NCBI GenBank assembly: GCA_019752015.1
Contig: JAIEMQ010000004.1
Span: 62,001-126,000, forward strand
Reading direction: 5' to 3'
Source of the DNA: Cyanobacteriota bacterium
GTDB taxonomy: Bacteria; Acidobacteriota; Vicinamibacteria; Vicinamibacterales; UBA2999
Length of the DNA stretch: 64,000 bases
Of this stretch, positions 11,944 through 62,918 are shown piece by piece. Under the pieces are notes generated by a model. The model was not told the origin of the DNA. It saw nothing but the letters and a program-made list of their open reading frames with translations, and did no database searches. Made by a program: the position numbers and the translations under genes. The first letter of the stretch is position 1. Each line of letters starts with the position of its first letter.

Positions 11944-12565
11944 TCTCGCGAAGATCGTGGAGATAGCCGCCTTCCGCGTGGAGCACATCGCCGAGCAGAC
12001 CCTGCTGGACGATGTTCAGCACCAGCATCTCGGGCCGATCGTAGTTGCAGTTCTCCATCATCACGGCGTGACGGCGGAATTTTTCGGCGGTCTCCACAAG
12101 CGCCCAGCAGTCGTCGATGGTCATCGCCGCGGGGACCTCGGTCGCGGCATGCGTGCCTGATTTCATTGCCGCGAGCATCACCGGCACGTGCCACTCCCAC
12201 GGCGTGGCCGTGAAGACGAGATCGAGATCTTCGGTCTCGCACAAGCGCTCGAAGTCGCGAGGGCCGCGCGAGTACGCCGGTGGTGCGGGATGCCCCGCGG
12301 CGGTCACGGCTTTCTGCGCCCACGAGGTGCGTTCCTCGCGGATGTCGCAGACCGCGGTGATCCGGCATCCCGGAATCTTCAGAAAGTTCTCGACGTGACT
12401 TCCACCCTGGAGGCCGACACCGACCATGCCGATTTTCACGAGCGAAATGGGTGCCTGGGGTGTCTGGGGTGCCTGGGGTGCCTGAGGTGCCTCAGCTGCA
12501 AGGTGCATAGACGCGGCGGCGGCGCCGCTCAGTTTCAGAAAGTCGCGGCGATTGATGTCGTTCAT
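11905..12565 (-). pseudogene. truncated Tat-exported Gfo/Idh/MocA (GH109-like) oxidoreductase
   Basis: From ATG 12565: Tat signal NRRDFLKLSGAAAAS, then a linker APQAPQAPQTPQAP encoded by a 9-base repeat, then a Rossmann start (KIGMVGVGLQGGSHVENFL). TATPWEWHVPVMLAAMKSGTHAATEVPA and ENCNYDRPEMLVLNIVQQGLLGDVLHAEGGYLHDLR are typical of the GH109 branch of this superfamily, NAD-dependent glycosidases. About 215 residues are normal, ending near EGLW; beyond that the frame is antisense to the TPR remnant, so about half the protein is missing. Its start overlaps the penicillin acylase stop (ATGA), showing it was the second gene of that operon. Confidence 0.75.
12450..12494. repeat. five 9-base units (GGTGCCTGG) in the Tat linker
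   Basis: Five consecutive units GGTGCCTGG, GGTGTCTGG, GGTGCCTGG, GGTGCCTGA and GGTGCCTCA. Read on the minus strand they encode the Pro-Gln-Ala repeat behind the Tat signal. Related GTGCCT/GGCACC words fill spacers at 9746-9772, 17045-17083 and 46887-46931. Confidence 0.8.
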
Positions 12566-14988
12566 GGTCGTGGTGTGAGCGTCAGCGTTGTGACCGTGGT
12601 GCCGGGGAGGAATGGCGTTGGCTCGCCGTTCAGCCATGCGCGGTATTGATCGCCGTAATGCGGCGAGAGCGGGTGGCCGCTCTGGCCGGTTGGAATGTGC
12701 AGGATGCCTTCGTTCTCGCGGCCGGGTGAGACCGCCATCCGCTCCGACGGACCGGTGCGAGGCGTGCTCGCGCGCGGAGTGTAAACGTCGCCGGGAAGCG
12801 GATCGCCGGGCATGTTGAGATAACGGCCGACGAACGGAATGGCGCCGGCAAGCGGATGCCGGATCTCGGCGCTGTTCGCCTCACCCCACGTGCGATCGGC
12901 AAGGCTTCTGCCGCCGTCGGTGAGCTGCGCGATCACCGCATCGACAGTATCGAGAATCGCATCGTCCCAGGTCTTGTATTTCGGATCGAGCAGATGCATC
13001 GGCCGCTCGCTCACGATTTGCCACACCGGTCCCTCGCCTCGCAGCAGTCTCGTGTAATCGAACTCCGGATCGACGGACTTCGCGGGTTCGGTCAGCGACG
13101 TCATCACACGCCGCACGAACAGCAGCCGGAATTCCTTGACGAGGCGATAGCCGACCGACTCCGGCGACGCGCGCCCCGTCCATTTCGAATCGATGAGGCG
13201 CCTGAATTCTTCGCGCCGACCAGCGCCGGGATCCGGGATCGGGGATCCGGGAGCCTCGATCGTGTCGAGCAGCAACTTCCGCCATCGCTCGAGGAACAAC
13301 GCGCGATCCTCGAGCTGGATGCTGAGCATGTCGACGGGTGTCGCCTTGTCGATCTTCATCAGGCGATCGCGGATCAATCGCGCCCGGATGCCGTCCGCGT
13401 AACCGCCTTCGCCGATTGCGGCCAGCATCGTGCCGTCGACGACCGGTGAGTTCGCGGTCCAGATGCGGCCGTCTTTCGGATCGACGATGCGGGGAAATTC
13501 GCTGGTGGTGAGGTAACCATCCCATCGATGCGTGCCGTCGGCCCACGATTCCGGCGTCATGCCGTCGTGGCCGATGCGCTTCGGGATCGCGCCGCCGATG
13601 GTCCACGCAATCCGCCCCATCGTATCCGCCATCGTCACGTTCTGGTTCGGGATGCCGAGGCCGGCCACTGCCTGCCACAGCTCGTCGACCGATCGCGCGC
13701 GCTCGGGCCTGGTGATGTCTGACGCGAGCGCGGTCGCATCGTGCGCGACCCAGCGCTGCGCATACTCGCGGCCGCGCGCGTCCTTCCACACCACGGGCCC
13801 CCACATCGTCCACCGCATGAGCACGGTCTTCGACGGCGCGCCCTTCGCCGCGATCGTTTCTTCGAAGACGTCGAACGCCTTCGGGCCTTCGGGTGTCAGG
13901 TACTTTTGGGGATCGCGCGCATCGGGCTCGATGCGGATCAGGTCGCTCCAGTCGCCGCCGGTGTTCGTGAATCCCCACGCGACGTGGCCGTTGCTGCCGA
14001 CGACCATGCTGGGAATGCCGGGAAGCGTGACGCCGGTGAGACGTTGATTTGTGGGAAACACCATCGAGGCGCGATACCAGATGATTGGCACGCCGATCGA
14101 GAGGTGCATGTCGTTGGCGAGGATCGCGGCGCCCGACGCGCTGTGCGCGCCATCGACCGCCCAATTATTGCTGCCGATGATCGAGGCTTCGTCCTCGGGA
14201 ACAATCCGGCTGTCAGGAACAATCCGGCTAAAGCCGGATGCTCCAGTGACTGACGTGTGATGTCCGTCCCTCAAATCGAAAACATTTGATTCCGGAATCG
14301 GCGGGCGGACGATCGCATTACCGACAACAGGTGTCTCCCAATCCGATCCCGCGGTGGACAGGAAGCGAAACATCGGCTCGGGCAGCGTGTCGCGCAAGGC
14401 GCCGTGCGATTGTTCGAAGGCGGCCTGGCGGCCTTGCAGTGTGTTGAACATCGCGAGCACGGTGAGGATCGAGTCCTCGGGCAGCCATGGCTGCGGCGTG
14501 GCGCGAAGGACCAGATACTCGAACGGTGCGGCACCGAGCGCGTTCAGGCCGGCGTTGACGCCGGCGGCATAGGCTTCGAGAATTTTTCGATACGACGGTT
14601 CAGCGAGCTCGAGCGCGCGGTGCGCGACATTGCGGAAGCGATGGGCGCGCATGTCCTCGTCGACTTGCATCGCTCGGGGCCCGACAAGCCCCGACAGCTC
14701 GCCGGCCGGCTGGCGGCGCTGCAAGTCCATCTGGAAAAAACGATCCTGCGCGTGCAGGAATCCGAGCGCGCGTGCCACATCCTCGCGCGTTGCGCCGGTG
14801 ATCGTCGGCACGCCCAGCGCGTCGCGATCGACGCGGACGTTCGCGGTGAGCCCCGACACCGCCGCGGTCCCATCGATCTGCGGCAGGCTGGCGCGCATCT
14901 GGGAGCGGGCATAGATTGCGCCGCCGCCGATCAACAGCGTGATCCCAACCACAGCGATCGACGCGAGACGAACAGCCCGCTTGAGCAT
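12562..14988 (-). CDS. penicillin acylase family Ntn-hydrolase
   Basis: 808 residues: N-terminal membrane anchor/signal (about 1-28), alpha-chain region (50-245), spacer, then the autocatalytic Ntn site GSNNWAVDG with Ser273 as nucleophile and new N-terminus of the beta chain. Later blocks such as NDMHLSIGVPIIWYRASMVF, GSNGHVAWGFTNTGGDWSDL, RWTMWGPVVW and WTIGGAIPKR are standard for the family. It hydrolyses amides (beta-lactam side chains, acyl-homoserine lactones or others); the substrate cannot be told. Two repeat insertions are visible: a REP palindrome in the spacer just before Ser273 (peptide GFSRIVPDSRIVPE) and a GGATCCGGG-type repeat giving PGSPIPDPGAG. Neither disrupts a known catalytic residue. 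Confidence 0.92.
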   Translation of the reverse strand: MLKRAVRLASIAVVGITLLIGGGAIYARSQMRASLPQIDGTAAVSGLTANVRVDRDALGVPTITGATREDVARALGFLHAQDRFFQMDLQRRQPAGELSGLVGPRAMQVDEDMRAHRFRNVAHRALELAEPSYRKILEAYAAGVNAGLNALGAAPFEYLVLRATPQPWLPEDSILTVLAMFNTLQGRQAAFEQSHGALRDTLPEPMFRFLSTAGSDWETPVVGNAIVRPPIPESNVFDLRDGHHTSVTGASGFSRIVPDSRIVPEDEASIIGSNNWAVDGAHSASGAAILANDMHLSIGVPIIWYRASMVFPTNQRLTGVTLPGIPSMVVGSNGHVAWGFTNTGGDWSDLIRIEPDARDPQKYLTPEGPKAFDVFEETIAAKGAPSKTVLMRWTMWGPVVWKDARGREYAQRWVAHDATALASDITRPERARSVDELWQAVAGLGIPNQNVTMADTMGRIAWTIGGAIPKRIGHDGMTPESWADGTHRWDGYLTTSEFPRIVDPKDGRIWTANSPVVDGTMLAAIGEGGYADGIRARLIRDRLMKIDKATPVDMLSIQLEDRALFLERWRKLLLDTIEAPGSPIPDPGAGRREEFRRLIDSKWTGRASPESVGYRLVKEFRLLFVRRVMTSLTEPAKSVDPEFDYTRLLRGEGPVWQIVSERPMHLLDPKYKTWDDAILDTVDAVIAQLTDGGRSLADRTWGEANSAEIRHPLAGAIPFVGRYLNMPGDPLPGDVYTPRASTPRTGPSERMAVSPGRENEGILHIPTGQSGHPLSPHYGDQYRAWLNGEPTPFLPGTTVTTLTLTPRP
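13225..13254. repeat. in-frame GATCCGGG/GATCGGGG repeat
   Basis: Tandem words GGGATCC, GGGATCG, GGGGATCC and GGGAGCC within the acylase gene, encoding PGSPIPDPG. The same GGGGATC word is repeated four times at 57725-57757 next to hisA. Confidence 0.65.
14198..14244. repeat. REP-like palindrome inserted in the acylase spacer
   Basis: Perfect palindrome ATCCGGCT-AA-AGCCGGAT at 14222-14239, with the word GGAACAATCCGGCT occurring twice (14198 and 14216) and GCTCC following. On the minus strand it encodes GASGFSRIVP. A near-identical copy lies in hisF (58909-58937); the stem is a shortened form of the REPs flanking the RAYT gene. Confidence 0.8.
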
Positions 14989-15014
14989 TCGGGGGATTCT
15001 CCCATATGGGCTGC

Positions 15015-15047
15015 GGTCCGCCTAAAGGCGGACCCTCACAGGATTTA
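15015..15047. repeat. left boundary REP of the RAYT locus
   Basis: Palindrome GGTCCGCCTAAAGGCGGACC (15015-15034) followed by CTCACAGGATTTA. The same 33 bases recur without a mismatch at 15714-15746 in the same orientation, bracketing the transposase gene. Confidence 0.85.
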
Positions 15048-15055
15048 TTTAAGGG

Positions 15056-15187
15056 TCCTTGTGAGGGTCCGGCTCATTCTTGAAACTCTGGTGAAGGTGC
15101 GGCTCTTCTATGAAGTTCTTGTGAGGGTCCGGCTTTAGCCGGACCGCTTATCAAGTTCCTGTGAGGGTCCGGCTTTAGCCGGACCGC
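15056..15187. repeat. REP array downstream of the RAYT gene
   Basis: Four head-to-tail copies of a unit beginning TTCTTGTGAGGGTCCGGCT, at about 15056, 15087, 15117 and 15157. The last two carry the complete palindrome GGTCCGGCTTTAGCCGGACC (15126-15145 and 15166-15185); the first two keep only the left half. Orientation is opposite to the boundary REP. The transposase stop codon (15175-15177) lies inside the last palindrome. Confidence 0.85.
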
Positions 15188-15678
15188 AGTTTGCCCACGC
15201 GCGCAATCTCGATCAAATCCTCGCGGCTGTGAACCTGCGAACCAATGAAAGGGTAGTCGTCAATCTTCTCGACCAGTCCTGCTCGAATCGGATTGTTGAG
15301 GATGTACTGCATCGCTCCCCAGACGTCCTTGTCCTGTCTGAGAAATCGATCATGTCCGTATCGCTGCCACACCCGCAGATTGAATGCCTTCATGAAATAG
15401 AAGCCGGAGTACTGCTTGGCCAACTTGATAAATTGAAGCGCATTCGAGCTGTGAGTTCGACCGCGAACCAGCTTGTGCACGTGGTCGGGCATGTACATGT
15501 CGACCGTTATTTCTAACTCGGTCTCTGCACACGCGCGCAGAACTTGCTCGCGTACCAAATCGACGCGATCTGATTGCGTGAATAGACGCTGGCGCCTGTG
15601 ACAACACCAGGTGAGCGAATAGGAATACATTCCGATGTAATCAAAGTCTTTGAGGTGAGGGGGATGTCCAAGGCTCAT
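15175..15678 (-). CDS. REP-associated tyrosine transposase (RAYT, TnpA_REP)
   Basis: 167 residues, a single-domain Y1 HUH transposase. MPDHVHKL supplies the HUH-type pair His66 and His68, and KLAKQYSG gives the likely catalytic Tyr90. VWQRYGHDRFLR followed by YILNNPIRAGLVE is the hallmark C-terminal signature of RAYTs and separates them from classic IS200/IS605 TnpA. No TnpB or IS ends accompany it. It sits among REP palindromes, which RAYTs bind and cleave as single strands, and its last codons and stop (KLRSG-stop) are written by a REP. The gene appears intact and therefore possibly functional. Likely role: spreading or maintaining REP sequences in this genome. Confidence 0.93.
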   Translation of the reverse strand: MSLGHPPHLKDFDYIGMYSYSLTWCCHRRQRLFTQSDRVDLVREQVLRACAETELEITVDMYMPDHVHKLVRGRTHSSNALQFIKLAKQYSGFYFMKAFNLRVWQRYGHDRFLRQDKDVWGAMQYILNNPIRAGLVEKIDDYPFIGSQVHSREDLIEIARVGKLRSG

Positions 15679-15713
15679 GCCGTGGATACAGCATTTATTG
15701 ATCCAGTCTGTGT

Positions 15714-15746
15714 GGTCCGCCTAAAGGCGGACCCTCACAGGATTTA
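15714..15746. repeat. right boundary REP of the RAYT locus
   Basis: Exact 33-base direct copy of 15015-15047, located 36 bases upstream of the transposase ATG. Two further partial tails (TTCACAGGATTT at 15757, CCACAGGAGTTT at 15783) follow, indicating a decayed array on this side too. The rest of the spacer up to the ada gene shows no other feature. Confidence 0.85.
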
Positions 15747-15952
15747 ATCGGGAATCTTCACAGGATTTGATTGCCGAATCCCTCCACAGGAGTTTTTGGA
15801 GGGTTTCTCGTGGGCCCGCGGGAACAATCTACCTAACGGCGTGGGAACAATGCGCCCCCGCGGATTTGCGGATTGACGCCCATTCGGGTCGTTCCACTGT
15901 CATCGCAATCGGCGGATCGCGGAGGGCCGGGGCGCTGGAATACCTTGGCTGC

Positions 15953-17041
15953 ATGATGCAACATCAACTGGGCGAGATGACGGGACTGGATCTGCGGTGG
16001 AAGGCGCTGGCGTCGCGGGACTCGGCGGCGGACGGCACCTTTGTGTACGGTGTCACGTCGACCGGCGTGTACTGCCGGCCCAGCTGCCCGAGCCGGCGGC
16101 CGCGGGCGGATCGCGTTCGTTTCTTCGATACGACCACCGAGGCGAAGCGCGCCGGGTTCCGTGCCTGCAAACGCTGCCGCCCCGACACCGTGGGCCTGGC
16201 ACAGCCGGGCATTGATGCGGTGCGGCGCGCGTCCGCGTATCTCGCCGCTCACGCCGATCAGACCGTCACGCTCGATCATCTTGCGCGCGTCGCGGCGATG
16301 AGCGCGCATCACCTGCAGCGTCGCTTCAAGTCGATTGTCGGACTGTCGCCGCGCGAGTTCCAGTCCGCCGTCCGCGCCGGAAAACTGCGCACCAGCCTGC
16401 GCGACGGGCGGGATGTGACGACGGCGATCTATGAGGCGGGATACGGATCGCCGAGCCGTGTCTACGAAGCGGCGCCGACCGGAAAAGGCATGTCGCCCTC
16501 GAATTACCGGCGCGGCGGCGCCGGGATGCGGATCGCGTACTCGACGGTGTCGAGCCCGATCGGCACGGTGCTGATCGCATCGACAGAGAACGGCGTCTGC
16601 TCGGTGAAGATCGGCAGCAGCGAGACCGAGCTTGCCGCGGAGCTGACGCGCGAGTTTCCCGCCGCCGAGATCGAAGCGAATTCCAAACCGCGCAGCGAGT
16701 GGACGACGGCGATCGCCAAACATCTTCGCGGCGATGCGACGTCACTCGATCTGCCGATCGACGTTCGCGCCACGGCGTTCCAATGGAAAGTATGGCGCGC
16801 CCTGCAGCGCATTCCGTACGGCGAGACGCGCGCGTATGCGGAAGTCGCCAAGAGCATCGGCAAGCCGAAGGCGGTCCGCGCGGTGGCTCGCGCCTGCGCG
16901 ACCAACCCGGTTGTCCTGGTCGTTCCCTGCCACCGGGTCGTCCCGAGTGCCGGTGGAATCGGCGGTTACCGGTGGGGGAGCGATTGCAAGGAACGTCTCC
17001 TTTCGACTGAGCAGCGGCAGGAAAAAACGCGCAGTCGCTGA
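15953..17041 (+). CDS. ada: Ada: methylphosphotriester/O6-methylguanine repair protein and regulator
   Basis: 362 residues from ATG 15953 (a later ATG at 15980 is also possible). Three Ada modules are present in order. The zinc domain has Cys41, Cys45, Cys72 and Cys75 (GVYCRPSCPSRRP, ACKRCRP), Cys41 being the expected methyl acceptor from phosphotriesters. Next is an AraC-type HTH (DHLARVAAMSAHHLQRRFKSIVGLSPREFQ). The C-terminal MGMT domain has PCHRV, with Cys326 accepting methyl from O6-methylguanine. Methylation of the first site turns Ada into an activator of its own regulon in E. coli. No alkB or alkA is adjacent. The REP locus lies directly upstream. Confidence 0.95.
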   Translation: MMQHQLGEMTGLDLRWKALASRDSAADGTFVYGVTSTGVYCRPSCPSRRPRADRVRFFDTTTEAKRAGFRACKRCRPDTVGLAQPGIDAVRRASAYLAAHADQTVTLDHLARVAAMSAHHLQRRFKSIVGLSPREFQSAVRAGKLRTSLRDGRDVTTAIYEAGYGSPSRVYEAAPTGKGMSPSNYRRGGAGMRIAYSTVSSPIGTVLIASTENGVCSVKIGSSETELAAELTREFPAAEIEANSKPRSEWTTAIAKHLRGDATSLDLPIDVRATAFQWKVWRALQRIPYGETRAYAEVAKSIGKPKAVRAVARACATNPVVLVVPCHRVVPSAGGIGGYRWGSDCKERLLSTEQRQEKTRSR

Positions 17042-61647: not shown

Positions 61648-62918
61648 CGTGGTTTCGGCGCCACTAAAGTGGCGCCCTCCCGGTTGATTCGTCGGTCTAT
61701 GGATCGGGCGTGCATTTCGAGGCCTTCGGCACGCGCGAGCGTCGTAATGGTCTTGCCAATCGACTTCAGCCCGCGTGGGGTCGTGCGCTGAACAGAAATC
61801 AGTTTGACGAAGTCGGCGGCGTTCAAGCCGCCGCGATATCGAGCCGCTCCGGCGGTGGGAAGCACGTGGTTGGAGCCGATCGCGTAATCGCCCGCGACCT
61901 GCGGGGTCGGTATGCCGACGAACAGCGATCCGGCGTTCACGACTTGATTCGCAATCGTGTGATTACCGGTCACCACGTGTTCGGCCGCCGCTTCGTTGGC
62001 CAGTGCGACCGCCTCCTTGATCGTCCGGCAGACGATGATGCCGCCGTGGCGCGCGATCGACTGCTTGGCGGGACCGCGCACTGGCATTTGCCGTTCGACT
62101 TCTCTGGCGACTTGCTGCGCGAGCCGCTTGCTCGTCGTGATCAGCACCGCACGAGCGTCCGGATCGTGTTCCGCCTGCGCGAGCAGGTCGGCTGCGATCC
62201 ATGACGGCGATCCCGTCGCCGTCACGATGAGGATCTCCGTCGGTCCCGCGTAGAAGTCGATGCCGCAGTCGGACGAAATCAGCGACTTCGCCGCCGACAC
62301 CCAGCGATTGCCGGGGCCGACGATCTTGTCGACACGCGGCACCGTGCGCGTGCCGTAGGCCATCGCCGCGATCGCGTGGGCGCCGCCAATCTGAAAGAGA
62401 CGATCCGCGCCGGCCTCGATCGCGGCCGCGAACACCGCGGCATCGGGGCGAGGACAACAGACGATCACTTCTTCGACACCGGCGGCGCGCGCCGGGATCG
62501 CCGTCATCAACAGTGACGAAGGCAGGGGATACCGCCCTGCCGGCACGTAACAGCCGACGCGCTGAAGGGGAGTCACGCGCTGCGCCACCGTGATGCCTGG
62601 CGCGACATTGAGGCGCCACCCGTGCGGCACCTGCCGCTTCGCCACCGCCCTGATGTTGCGCGCCGCTCGTCCAATTGCGGTGCGCACGTCATCGGGCAGC
62701 GTCCGTGCGTGCGACTCCCACTTCGCGCGCGGCACTTCGATCGACCCGGTCAGCCCGTCGAACTGCTTCGCGTACCGCTTCAATACCGCATCGCCACCAC
62801 GGCGGACGCGGTTGATGATTTGCCGGGCGCCAAGCAGCGTCGAGTTGTCCCGGACCCGCTCAGCAGCAAGCAGTTGACTAACCGCGATCCGGTCCGAAGA
62901 TGAGACGATCCTGATCAT
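61644..62918 (-). CDS. hisD: histidinol dehydrogenase HisD
   Basis: 424 residues. Family markers in order: GGDAVLKRYAKQFDG, VAQRVTPLQRVGCYVPAGRYPLPSSLLMTAIPA, IGGAHAIAAMAYGT, VDKIVGPGNRWVSAAKSLI, GTEILIV-type block (AGPTEILIVT), the zinc-site QAEHDPDA, EHVVTGN and AGSLFVG, and DYAIGSNHVLPTAGAARYRGGL. It oxidises L-histidinol twice with NAD to histidine, with zinc. The C-terminal [12 protein letters not shown] is encoded by a palindrome of the GGCGCCACT-AA-AGTGGCGCC type, so the natural end may have been replaced. 33 bases separate it from hisG; these are CCTTCGTG repeats. Confidence 0.96.
   Translation of the reverse strand: MIRIVSSSDRIAVSQLLAAERVRDNSTLLGARQIINRVRRGGDAVLKRYAKQFDGLTGSIEVPRAKWESHARTLPDDVRTAIGRAARNIRAVAKRQVPHGWRLNVAPGITVAQRVTPLQRVGCYVPAGRYPLPSSLLMTAIPARAAGVEEVIVCCPRPDAAVFAAAIEAGADRLFQIGGAHAIAAMAYGTRTVPRVDKIVGPGNRWVSAAKSLISSDCGIDFYAGPTEILIVTATGSPSWIAADLLAQAEHDPDARAVLITTSKRLAQQVAREVERQMPVRGPAKQSIARHGGIIVCRTIKEAVALANEAAAEHVVTGNHTIANQVVNAGSLFVGIPTPQVAGDYAIGSNHVLPTAGAARYRGGLNAADFVKLISVQRTTPRGLKSIGKTITTLARAEGLEMHARSIDRRINREGATLVAPKPR
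61657..61676. repeat. palindrome GGCGCCACTAAAGTGGCGCC at the hisD 3' end
   Basis: Perfect palindrome with a 9-bp stem and AA loop, the same geometry as the RAYT-locus REPs but a different stem sequence. It encodes GATLVAP in hisD and lies ten bases upstream of the hisC start codon, where it could fold and affect hisC translation. Confidence 0.75.

Follow-up and report, generated by a model that had tools for sequence, protein, structure and literature searches.

A REPtron with GTGAG-headed REP palindromes and heterodimeric doublets in an Acidobacteriota genome

Introduction

REP-associated tyrosine transposases (RAYTs, or TnpA-REP) are described as moving REPs, not themselves, and in the parts of the literature available here they are reported not to change location. 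The papers cited below by PMC accession were available in part, and the statements attributed to them are limited to those parts. For a RAYT of Marinomonas, SELEX gave an apex rule, T12 T13 N14 A15, and A3G4 of the REP head selects a CT cleavage site (PMC8266576). In Escherichia coli TnpA-REP, the head is contacted by W94, Q95, E100, H101 and R104 (PMC6006769). For inverted REP doublets, it is a clover form, and not the long hairpin, that would be recognized according to a suggestion of Bertels and Rainey (PMC3116915). Enterobacterial REPINs have been called asymmetric (PMC8049555).

In the present work, we analyze a RAYT gene surrounded by REP units in the 5.92-Mb genome (82 contigs) of a soil bacterium of the Acidobacteriota. 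The window, by which we mean the whole 64-kb stretch of DNA that was analyzed (G000:C11:62001-126000), carries this gene between those of an acylase and an Ada protein. The locus is an intact REPtron, consisting of a RAYT that would act as a single-strand nuclease of the HUH/Tyr kind and of a private REP family, and we consider it likely that it operates by the mechanism proposed below. The REPtron itself is of a known kind and its head is atypical. With private palindromes and a site that is empty in relatives, it constitutes a natural test of how RAYTs choose, copy and move REPs.

The RAYT gene and its product

The features of the locus, in coordinates of the window, are the following:

12562..14988, minus strand: flanking gene of a penicillin amidase family acylase (PF01804)
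14989..15901, no strand: REPtron insertion interval of 913 nt, from the acylase start codon to the conserved Ada upstream motif
15015..15039, minus strand: REP unit, GTGAG + GGTCCGCC-TTTA-GGCGGACC
15015..15047, no strand: exact 33-mer direct repeat, copy one
15060..15074, plus strand: half REP, head and 5' arm only
15121..15145, plus strand: REP unit, GTGAG + GGTCCGGC-TTTA-GCCGGACC
15161..15185, plus strand: REP unit, GTGAG + GGTCCGGC-TTTA-GCCGGACC, in inverted orientation and running into the 3' end of the RAYT gene
15175..15678, minus strand: RAYT (TnpA-REP) gene, from ORF, NF047646 profile, alignments and fold
15714..15738, minus strand: REP unit, GTGAG + GGTCCGCC-TTTA-GGCGGACC, on the 5' side of the RAYT gene
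15714..15746, no strand: exact 33-mer direct repeat, copy two
15747..15800, no strand: decayed REP tails (CTTCACAGGATTT, CTCCACAGGAG), from sequence reading
15953..17041, plus strand: flanking gene of an Ada regulator/methyltransferase (PF02805, PF12833, PF01035), its start codon being the analyst's choice

The RAYT ORF is complete, encodes 167 aa and scores 86 bits against NF047646, the NCBIfam profile of REP-associated tyrosine transposases (cut-off 80). It contains an HUH motif, HVH (H66-V-H68), and a Y-I-x-x-N-P motif, with Y125 within YILNNP. H66, H68 and Y125 are invariant in a first alignment (A1, 25 rows); in a second one (A2, 39 rows), Y125 and H66 are invariant and H68 nearly so. An earlier note, made from the letters of the window, had announced an intact TnpA_REP gene with HVH, which these data bear out; its choice of Tyr90 (KQYSG) as catalytic residue has to be abandoned, since that position is not conserved and Y125 is. 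The predicted catalytic tyrosine, Y125, aligns with the tyrosine of YIYINP in E. coli TnpA-REP 4er8, which we take to be the catalytic one. W104, Q105, D110, R111 and R114 align with the E. coli head-contact residues W94, Q95, E100, H101 and R104, respectively, and make up the predicted head-contact cluster.

The AlphaFold model of the protein (pLDDT 89.7) has the E. coli TnpA-REP with REP, 4er8, as top match by both structure programs (Foldseek 1.1e-9; Z 15.5, rmsd 2.7, 148 residues aligned). Its fold is also shared with IS608 and ISDra2, which, together with a weak match to the IS200/IS605 profile NF033573, could suggest an IS200/IS605-type insertion sequence and not a RAYT. Such an assignment is highly improbable: the NF033573 match, at 31.1 bits, remains under its cut-off of 55 when NF047646 exceeds its own, the gene is single copy (its best paralogue in the genome is 33% identical), the ends are dispersed REPs and the tyrosine motif is YILNNP. 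Class 3 HUH features, a Y----Q motif and a CnGA foot as given in the available part of PMC6006769, were not found, the RAYT having YILNNP and its REPs GTGAG. Across the own genome and 118 relatives, the closest RAYT in another genome is 47% identical.

REP units at the RAYT locus

The consensus of the REP unit is GTGAG + GGTCCG(G/C)C-TTTA-G(G/C)CGGACC. The window contains four full units (within 3 mismatches), when 100 shuffles give 0.00; all copies are at the RAYT locus and no further unit of this family was found elsewhere in the 64 kb. The units at 15015 (-) and 15121 (+) are heads-inside heterodimer partners. Since the gene lies on the minus strand, its 3' side corresponds to lower coordinates and holds the two full and two half units reported in the earlier note; a third full unit, at 15015, lies beyond them and has to be added. 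A more decayed half unit was recognized by eye near ~15090. The identical 33-mers and the decayed tails on the 5' side, also mentioned there, were both recovered, the former as an exact match that extends to 36 nt at 97% in the repeat-comparison alignment. We rejected the 33-mer as a target-site duplication or IS boundary, because its two copies are REP units that point the same way and have 8 nt of flank in common. The same succession of REP orientations is encountered in several other REPtrons (e.g. L014, L016, L023).

The stop codon of the RAYT gene, TAA (15175-15177), falls inside the TTTA apex (15174-15177) of the inverted REP at 15161-15185. In a set of 75 RAYT ORFs, an inverted TTNA hairpin (at most 1 mismatch) occurs between 60 nt before and 200 nt after the stop in 50; the nearest such hairpin has the stop exactly in its apex in 19 cases, precedes the stop and is read through in 1, and follows it in 30. 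A stop in the apex in 19 of 20, set against one frame in three, corresponds to a binomial probability of 1e-8 with rows treated as independent. On the RAYT tree this state changes 18 times, as for shuffled labels, so the arrangement arose repeatedly, and we rejected its single inheritance. As read from the sequence, it ties the last RAYT codons to the REP of the RAYT. No mention of a stop codon in a REP apex was found in the RAYT literature searched, which was available in part.

The REP family across the genome

The core word TGTGAG+GGTCCG (TGTGAGGGTCCG) occurs 69 times in the genome, against 0 for the reversed control; further copies of the palindrome, on which the earlier note had made its reading depend, do exist. 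The stretches around all 69 sites contain 83 full REP units. Their heads are GTGAG in 67, GTGGG in 10 and others in 6, counts that are biased towards GTGAG as the stretches were partly picked by that word. Their stems are of the GCC type in 44 and of the GGC type in 39, and their apices are TTTA (52), TTCA (26), TTGA (4) and TAGA (1). The apex is thus TTNA in 82 of 83 units, the lone 'TAGA' unit (L116) being a TCTA-apex unit scored on the wrong strand. Such an apex would be compatible with the loop-specific recognition, combined with a perfect stem, of group 3 (subclass 2.5) RAYTs. In an 824-kb sample, 10 of the 12 units of the GTGAG/GTGGG family have GTGAG and 2 have GTGGG (6 and 2 excluding the window). 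The palindromic, high-copy and extragenic character of REPs is evident, 74 of 81 units lying outside genes predicted by a simple custom hexamer score, against 20.7% of random points. Where both neighbours were read, 24 REP clusters out of 37 lie between codirectional genes, 12 between convergent and 1 between divergent ones, compared with 320, 92 and 96 among all gaps; for divergent genes this amounts to 1/37 clusters versus 96/508 gaps (Fisher p 0.012).

Of the 67 GTGAG units, 51 have a CT in the three bases that immediately precede the head (CCT 30, CTT 13, TCT 5, ACT 2, CTC 1), a count in which the T at -1 belonged to the search word and the C did not. Tandem REP arrays with a 39-45-nt period stand at contig ends (end of C43, end of C48, start of C74); because the assembly breaks within such arrays, the REP copy number is probably underestimated. 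The RAYT is flanked by one REP family dispersed in the genome, as is characteristic of a RAYT. The GT[AG]G head of the REP definition (Nunvar 2013) does not apply to the 67 units of 83 with GTGAG; the 10 GTGGG units contain GTGG.

Four RAYT/REP pairs in one genome

With the RAYT profile, 12 matches were obtained in the genome. Four exceed the cut-off, and all four are flanked by palindromes of their own. A de novo census of 824 kb yielded 92 perfect hairpins (stem of at least 8, 4-nt loop), of which 33 have a TTYA loop where ~3 are expected by a crude estimate from random 4-mers. All but one of the 33 (32) fall into four families:

Family 1, GTAG+AGGCG...: 13 in the census; 51 in the whole genome against 0 for the control
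Family 2 (window RAYT), GTGAG/GTGGG+GGTCC...: 12 in the census
Family 3, GGAG+AGCGACGGC, with one variant GGCGACCGC: 4 in the census; 12 in the whole genome against 0 for the control
Family 4, GGGAG+GGCG(G/C)CAC: 3 in the census; 3 in the whole genome against 0 for the control

The genome therefore presents four RAYT/REP pairs with a common TTYA apex and different heads and stems. This apex fits in all four families the T-T-N-A rule of the Marinomonas RAYT (PMC8266576). All four heads end in AG, and by analogy with the AG to CT rule of Marinomonas the four families would share a common CT cleavage site.

Two other palindromes of the window, at 1997-2018 (GTAG+AGGCGGGAC) and 61657-61676 (GGGAG+GGCGCCAC), both with a TTYA apex, belong to families 1 and 4, whose REPs are those found beside the RAYTs of contigs C44 and C3. 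The suggestion that palindromes throughout the window originated from the window RAYT consequently fails, and we rejected it as their maker.

A palindrome ATCCGGC-TAAA-GCCGGAT with a GGAGC-like head is located at 14222-14239 inside the acylase gene; similar ATCCGGC units are present in L093 and L120, and it may represent either a minor fifth family or a unit in decay. Beside the eight sub-cut-off profile matches (L005-L012, 111-301 aa), inspection by eye found no repeated REP-like palindromes. One of them, L005, combines PF01797 with a weak C-terminal helix-turn-helix match and resembles subclass 2.1 of PMC6006769. The family-3 stem AGCGACGGC with a GGAG head also flanks the RAYTs L156 (3001-3480) and L162 (3001-3453), from Ca. 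Sulfopaludibacter and another Acidobacteria MAG, a stem unusually conserved across distant lineages. In the wider RAYT tree, the REPtrons L137, L138 and L149 have apices such as TTTT, TTTC and TTCG, not TTNA.

Distribution in relatives and RAYT phylogeny

A word survey was carried out on 119 genomes, the own genome and 118 relatives, 8 of which are of the same genus (G001-G008). The word TGTGAGGGTCCG has 0 matches in 8/8 congeners; the other 110 relatives give 16 matches in 15 genomes, and the reversed control gives 14 in all 118. The comparison with relatives put forward in the earlier note thus comes out in favour of a REPtron, a reading upheld as well by the family profile, the HUH/Tyr motifs, the fold, the flanking REPs and the 69 copies. 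The same stems with GTRG-N heads number 16, 5, 3, 34, 2, 212, 129, 42 and 6 in G000 (the own genome) to G008, in that order. Since they are found in 9/9 genomes, the stem family extends over the whole genus, and it is the head that changed in the own species, where it is mostly GTGAG, outside GT[AG]G, the congeners having the same stems behind GTRG. The 16 units with GTRG-N heads still present in the own genome count against the explanation that we favour.

REPs persist without a matching RAYT, as seen in G003, where 34 GTRGN units coexist with no RAYT match in the search of the relatives' RAYTs, and in G005, where the three located RAYTs are nearest to families 1, 3 and 4 and GTRGN units number 212. 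G003 led us to reject the idea that a REP family is always accompanied, within its genome, by a matching RAYT. Family-3 units amount to 12 (own genome), 4 (G001), 8 (G005), 5 (G007) and 23 (G008) where the RAYT is at the shared locus, and to 1 (G002), 0 (G003), 0 (G004) and 3 (G006) where no RAYT match was found; one order-level relative has 1.

The units retained in G003, the location of REPs mostly outside genes and their avoidance of divergent promoters would agree with a RAYT that is an inert relic, the REPs being kept by host functions (e.g. transcript ends) with no ongoing copying. This is improbable in view of the intact ORF and motifs of the RAYT and of the GTGAG word, whose absence from all 8 congeners and 69 copies here point to spread after divergence; the near-identity of the REP copies partly reflects the exact 12-mer with which they were retrieved.

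The tree of 75 RAYTs, obtained by a quick method and with 37 of 72 inner branches open, requires 3 head changes (GTRG in 43 rows, GGAG in 8, GGGAG in 1, GTGAG in 1, 22 unassigned). The 8 GGAG rows, including the own C16 gene, form one clade (SH-aLRT 87). The window RAYT, on an end branch of 1.03, groups with the RAYTs of G006 and G007 (SH-aLRT 88, not starred). Residue 112 corresponds by alignment to E. coli position 102, between H101 and R104. Of the 8 GGAG rows, 7 have T at this position; among the 43 GTRG rows, V or I is found in 36 and T in 4. The window RAYT has F and the GGGAG RAYT has R. As a candidate head determinant, residue 112 is a lead only, with three head-change events.

Heterodimeric REP doublets

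REP neighbours less than 220 nt apart are arranged heads-inside in 30 cases, in tandem in 12 and heads-outside in 0, the doublet organization of REPINs or BIMEs. Among the 30 inverted, heads-inside neighbours, 29 combine the two stem types, GGC and GCC, and 1 is a pair of equals (binomial 6e-8). Tandem neighbours agree in stem type in 11 of 12, and the odd pair contains the misread TCTA unit. In another genome, G095, where the head is GGAG and the stems are different, inverted neighbours differ in 27 of 27 cases among the first 100 of 277 sites; they also differ in 4/4 of the few read in G093. Over 40 informative REPtron loci, stems of opposite orientation differ more in 23, less in 0 and equally in 17, a strand-specific pattern reached in 0 of 2000 permutations. 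G006, which carries a sister RAYT, has 4 hetero and 5 same pairs among the 100 sites listed. Heterodimers are not obligatory in relatives, and the hetero/homo state changes 13 times on the tree, against a mean of 12.4 for shuffled labels.

DNA folding gives a difference between the long hairpin and two hairpins of -2.3 kcal/mol for native doublets versus -11.8 for in-silico homodimers. Even so, 26 of 29 native hetero pairs fold preferentially into the long hairpin, which counts against the explanation that we favour.

The heterodimer rule might also be a founder effect, with all GTGAG REPINs derived from one hetero REPIN beside the RAYT after the head switch, spacers that merely diverged and an asymmetry without function. 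We give this a substantial chance, somewhat short of even. It would account for the sister species G006 being without the rule and agrees with the hetero pair 15015(-)/15121(+) at the RAYT locus itself. REPIN spacers are moreover described as highly diverse (PMC8049555), and their mean similarity here is slightly above that of shuffles (10.49 vs 9.42). The spacers also speak against it, for the 20 spacer cores have no long common core: over 190 comparisons the highest score is 28 (24 for shuffles), a score of 30 is never attained and what the best matches share are REP fragments; the REPs themselves, selected with a tolerance of 2 mismatches, are near-identical. For want of a long common core, copying of spacers along with REPs was rejected in spite of the slightly raised mean. 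Also difficult to reconcile with a single founder are the rule in G095, a second genome with another head and stem, and the strand-specific stems of 23 loci out of 40, never reversed.

Insertion sites and the origin of the locus

The acylase/Ada interval occupied here by the REPtron measures about 21 (G001), 83 (G006), 30 (G008), 117 (G002) and 15 nt (G003) in congeners, whose acylase start codons are estimates. In all five of these readable junctions, neither a RAYT (tblastn) nor a REP (by eye) was found; G004 and G007 (contig ends or truncated matches) and G005 (acylase not adjoining Ada) are uninformative. The sister RAYTs of G006 and G007 are located between a small gene by a cytidylyltransferase (PF02348) and a phosphoglycerate dehydrogenase gene (PF02826, PF19304). 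No RAYT was found at this second junction in the other 7 of 9 genomes; it measures 2, 2 and 11 nt in G008, G002 and G003, and holds other sequence in G001 and G004. One RAYT clade is therefore found at two sites within the genus, each most simply explained by gain. The literature searched yielded no mention of empty sites for a RAYT or REPtron. The family-3 RAYT has common flanking genes in the own genome, G001, G005, G007 and G008, a synteny seen in the own genome on one side only, 2.3 kb away, and limited in G007 by a contig end beside the RAYT.

At the small-gene/dehydrogenase junction, G005 and the own genome have a lone TTYA palindrome of another family between the stop codons (L299/L302); REPs may mark or prepare the landing site of a RAYT. 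In G001 (L301), 331 nt of short direct repeats (CAATCGTCAATCG...) are found there instead of a REP.

The gain at the acylase/Ada junction could be due to horizontal transfer, the RAYT and its REPs forming a small cassette inserted by recombination and not by their own activity. We regard this as less likely than not, though with a fair chance. Horizontal transfer of RAYTs has been argued for (PMC6006769), and the window RAYT is 41-44% identical to its same-genus sisters versus 76-81% for the flanking Ada proteins (6 congeners with a near-full-length match). Set against this, the REP stems occur in 9/9 genomes of the genus and the tree groups the RAYT with those of congeners, so that a resident REP/RAYT system existed; no foreign gene accompanies the RAYT in the insert, the rest of which is REPs and their short spacers, apart from about 130 nt at the edges.

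A bolder reading, which we consider unlikely, is that RAYTs can move their own gene. One clade at two junctions that are otherwise RAYT-free, and filled almost only by RAYT and REPs, would then reflect transposition of the REPtron as a REP-bounded unit. In the relocated copy, the recognition code would have been rewritten, with GTGAG replacing GTRG as head and F appearing at residue 112, and doublets would have been confined to strict heterodimers of a left and a right end. IS608 has two different ends, to which these strict heterodimers may be likened.

Proposed mechanism

In the explanation that we favour, the RAYT would bind the REP strand as a folded single-stranded hairpin and read its TTNA apex, its perfect stem and the AG that closes its GTGAG head. 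By analogy with Marinomonas, the head would guide the protein to a CT cleavage site directly 5' of the head (C[CT]T|GTGAG). REP doublets would be cut and rejoined into intergenic DNA exposed in replication. The doublet, or REPIN, is a heterodimer of a GGTCCGGC unit and a GGTCCGCC unit, and its two mismatches would weaken the competing long hairpin. Access to the likely substrate, the two hairpins folded separately, would thereby be improved. In the own species, the head would have changed from the GTRG-N of the congeners to GTGAG alongside fast RAYT change, and the REPtron would have entered the acylase/Ada junction after the divergence of the congeners.

Comparison with known systems

Position and head differ between congeners in one RAYT clade, whereas the GGAG-head clade keeps common flanking genes in five genomes. 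This contrast and the four RAYT/REP pairs make specificity, mobility and doublet use testable by oligonucleotide cleavage assays. Judging from the literature searched, RAYTs are little studied in Acidobacteriota, as the earlier note fairly stated; few mentions were found (Di Nocera 2013, PMC3733652; PMC6006769), and for a RAYT with a GGAG head only unrelated papers were among the literature matches listed.

The TIRYTs of Acidobacteria (Di Nocera 2013, PMC3733652) come from the same phylum and have inverted copies flanking the gene on both sides. Their long TIRs contain GGGGWSAS, unlike the self-complementary REPs with a head described here. The orthoswitch of Pseudomonas and Stenotrophomonas (Nunvar 2013, PMC3686654) likewise involves a change of REP class with the RAYT lineage; those RAYTs are syntenic and their tabulated heads are GT[AG]G, whereas here the head is outside this set and the gene at another site. 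In E. coli BIMEs (Y paired with Z1 or Z2) and in REPtron Ec (PMC6006769, PMC8266576), the two members of an inverted pair likewise belong to different REP subtypes. The E. coli REPs are long and bulged with a strict GTAG, in contrast to perfect palindromes differing by a compensatory base pair. In the Pseudomonas REPINs and RAYTs (Bertels and Rainey 2011, PMC3116915), inverted doublets are also the apparent unit, dispersed and mostly extragenic, and that work discusses folding into a long hairpin versus a clover. The GI REPINs of SBW25 are symmetrical (PMC3116915), whereas the arms of the present doublets are of different stem types. Finally, the group 3 RAYT/REPtron Mb of Marinomonas MWYL1 (Corneloup 2021, PMC8266576) shares the TTNA apex, the perfect short palindrome and, presumably, the head as guide, and its RAYT has the catalytic Y125 and extra N-terminal residues in common with that of the window; the present REPtron is distinguished from it by GTGAG in place of GTAG, an 8-bp stem, heterodimeric doublets and a stop codon in the apex.
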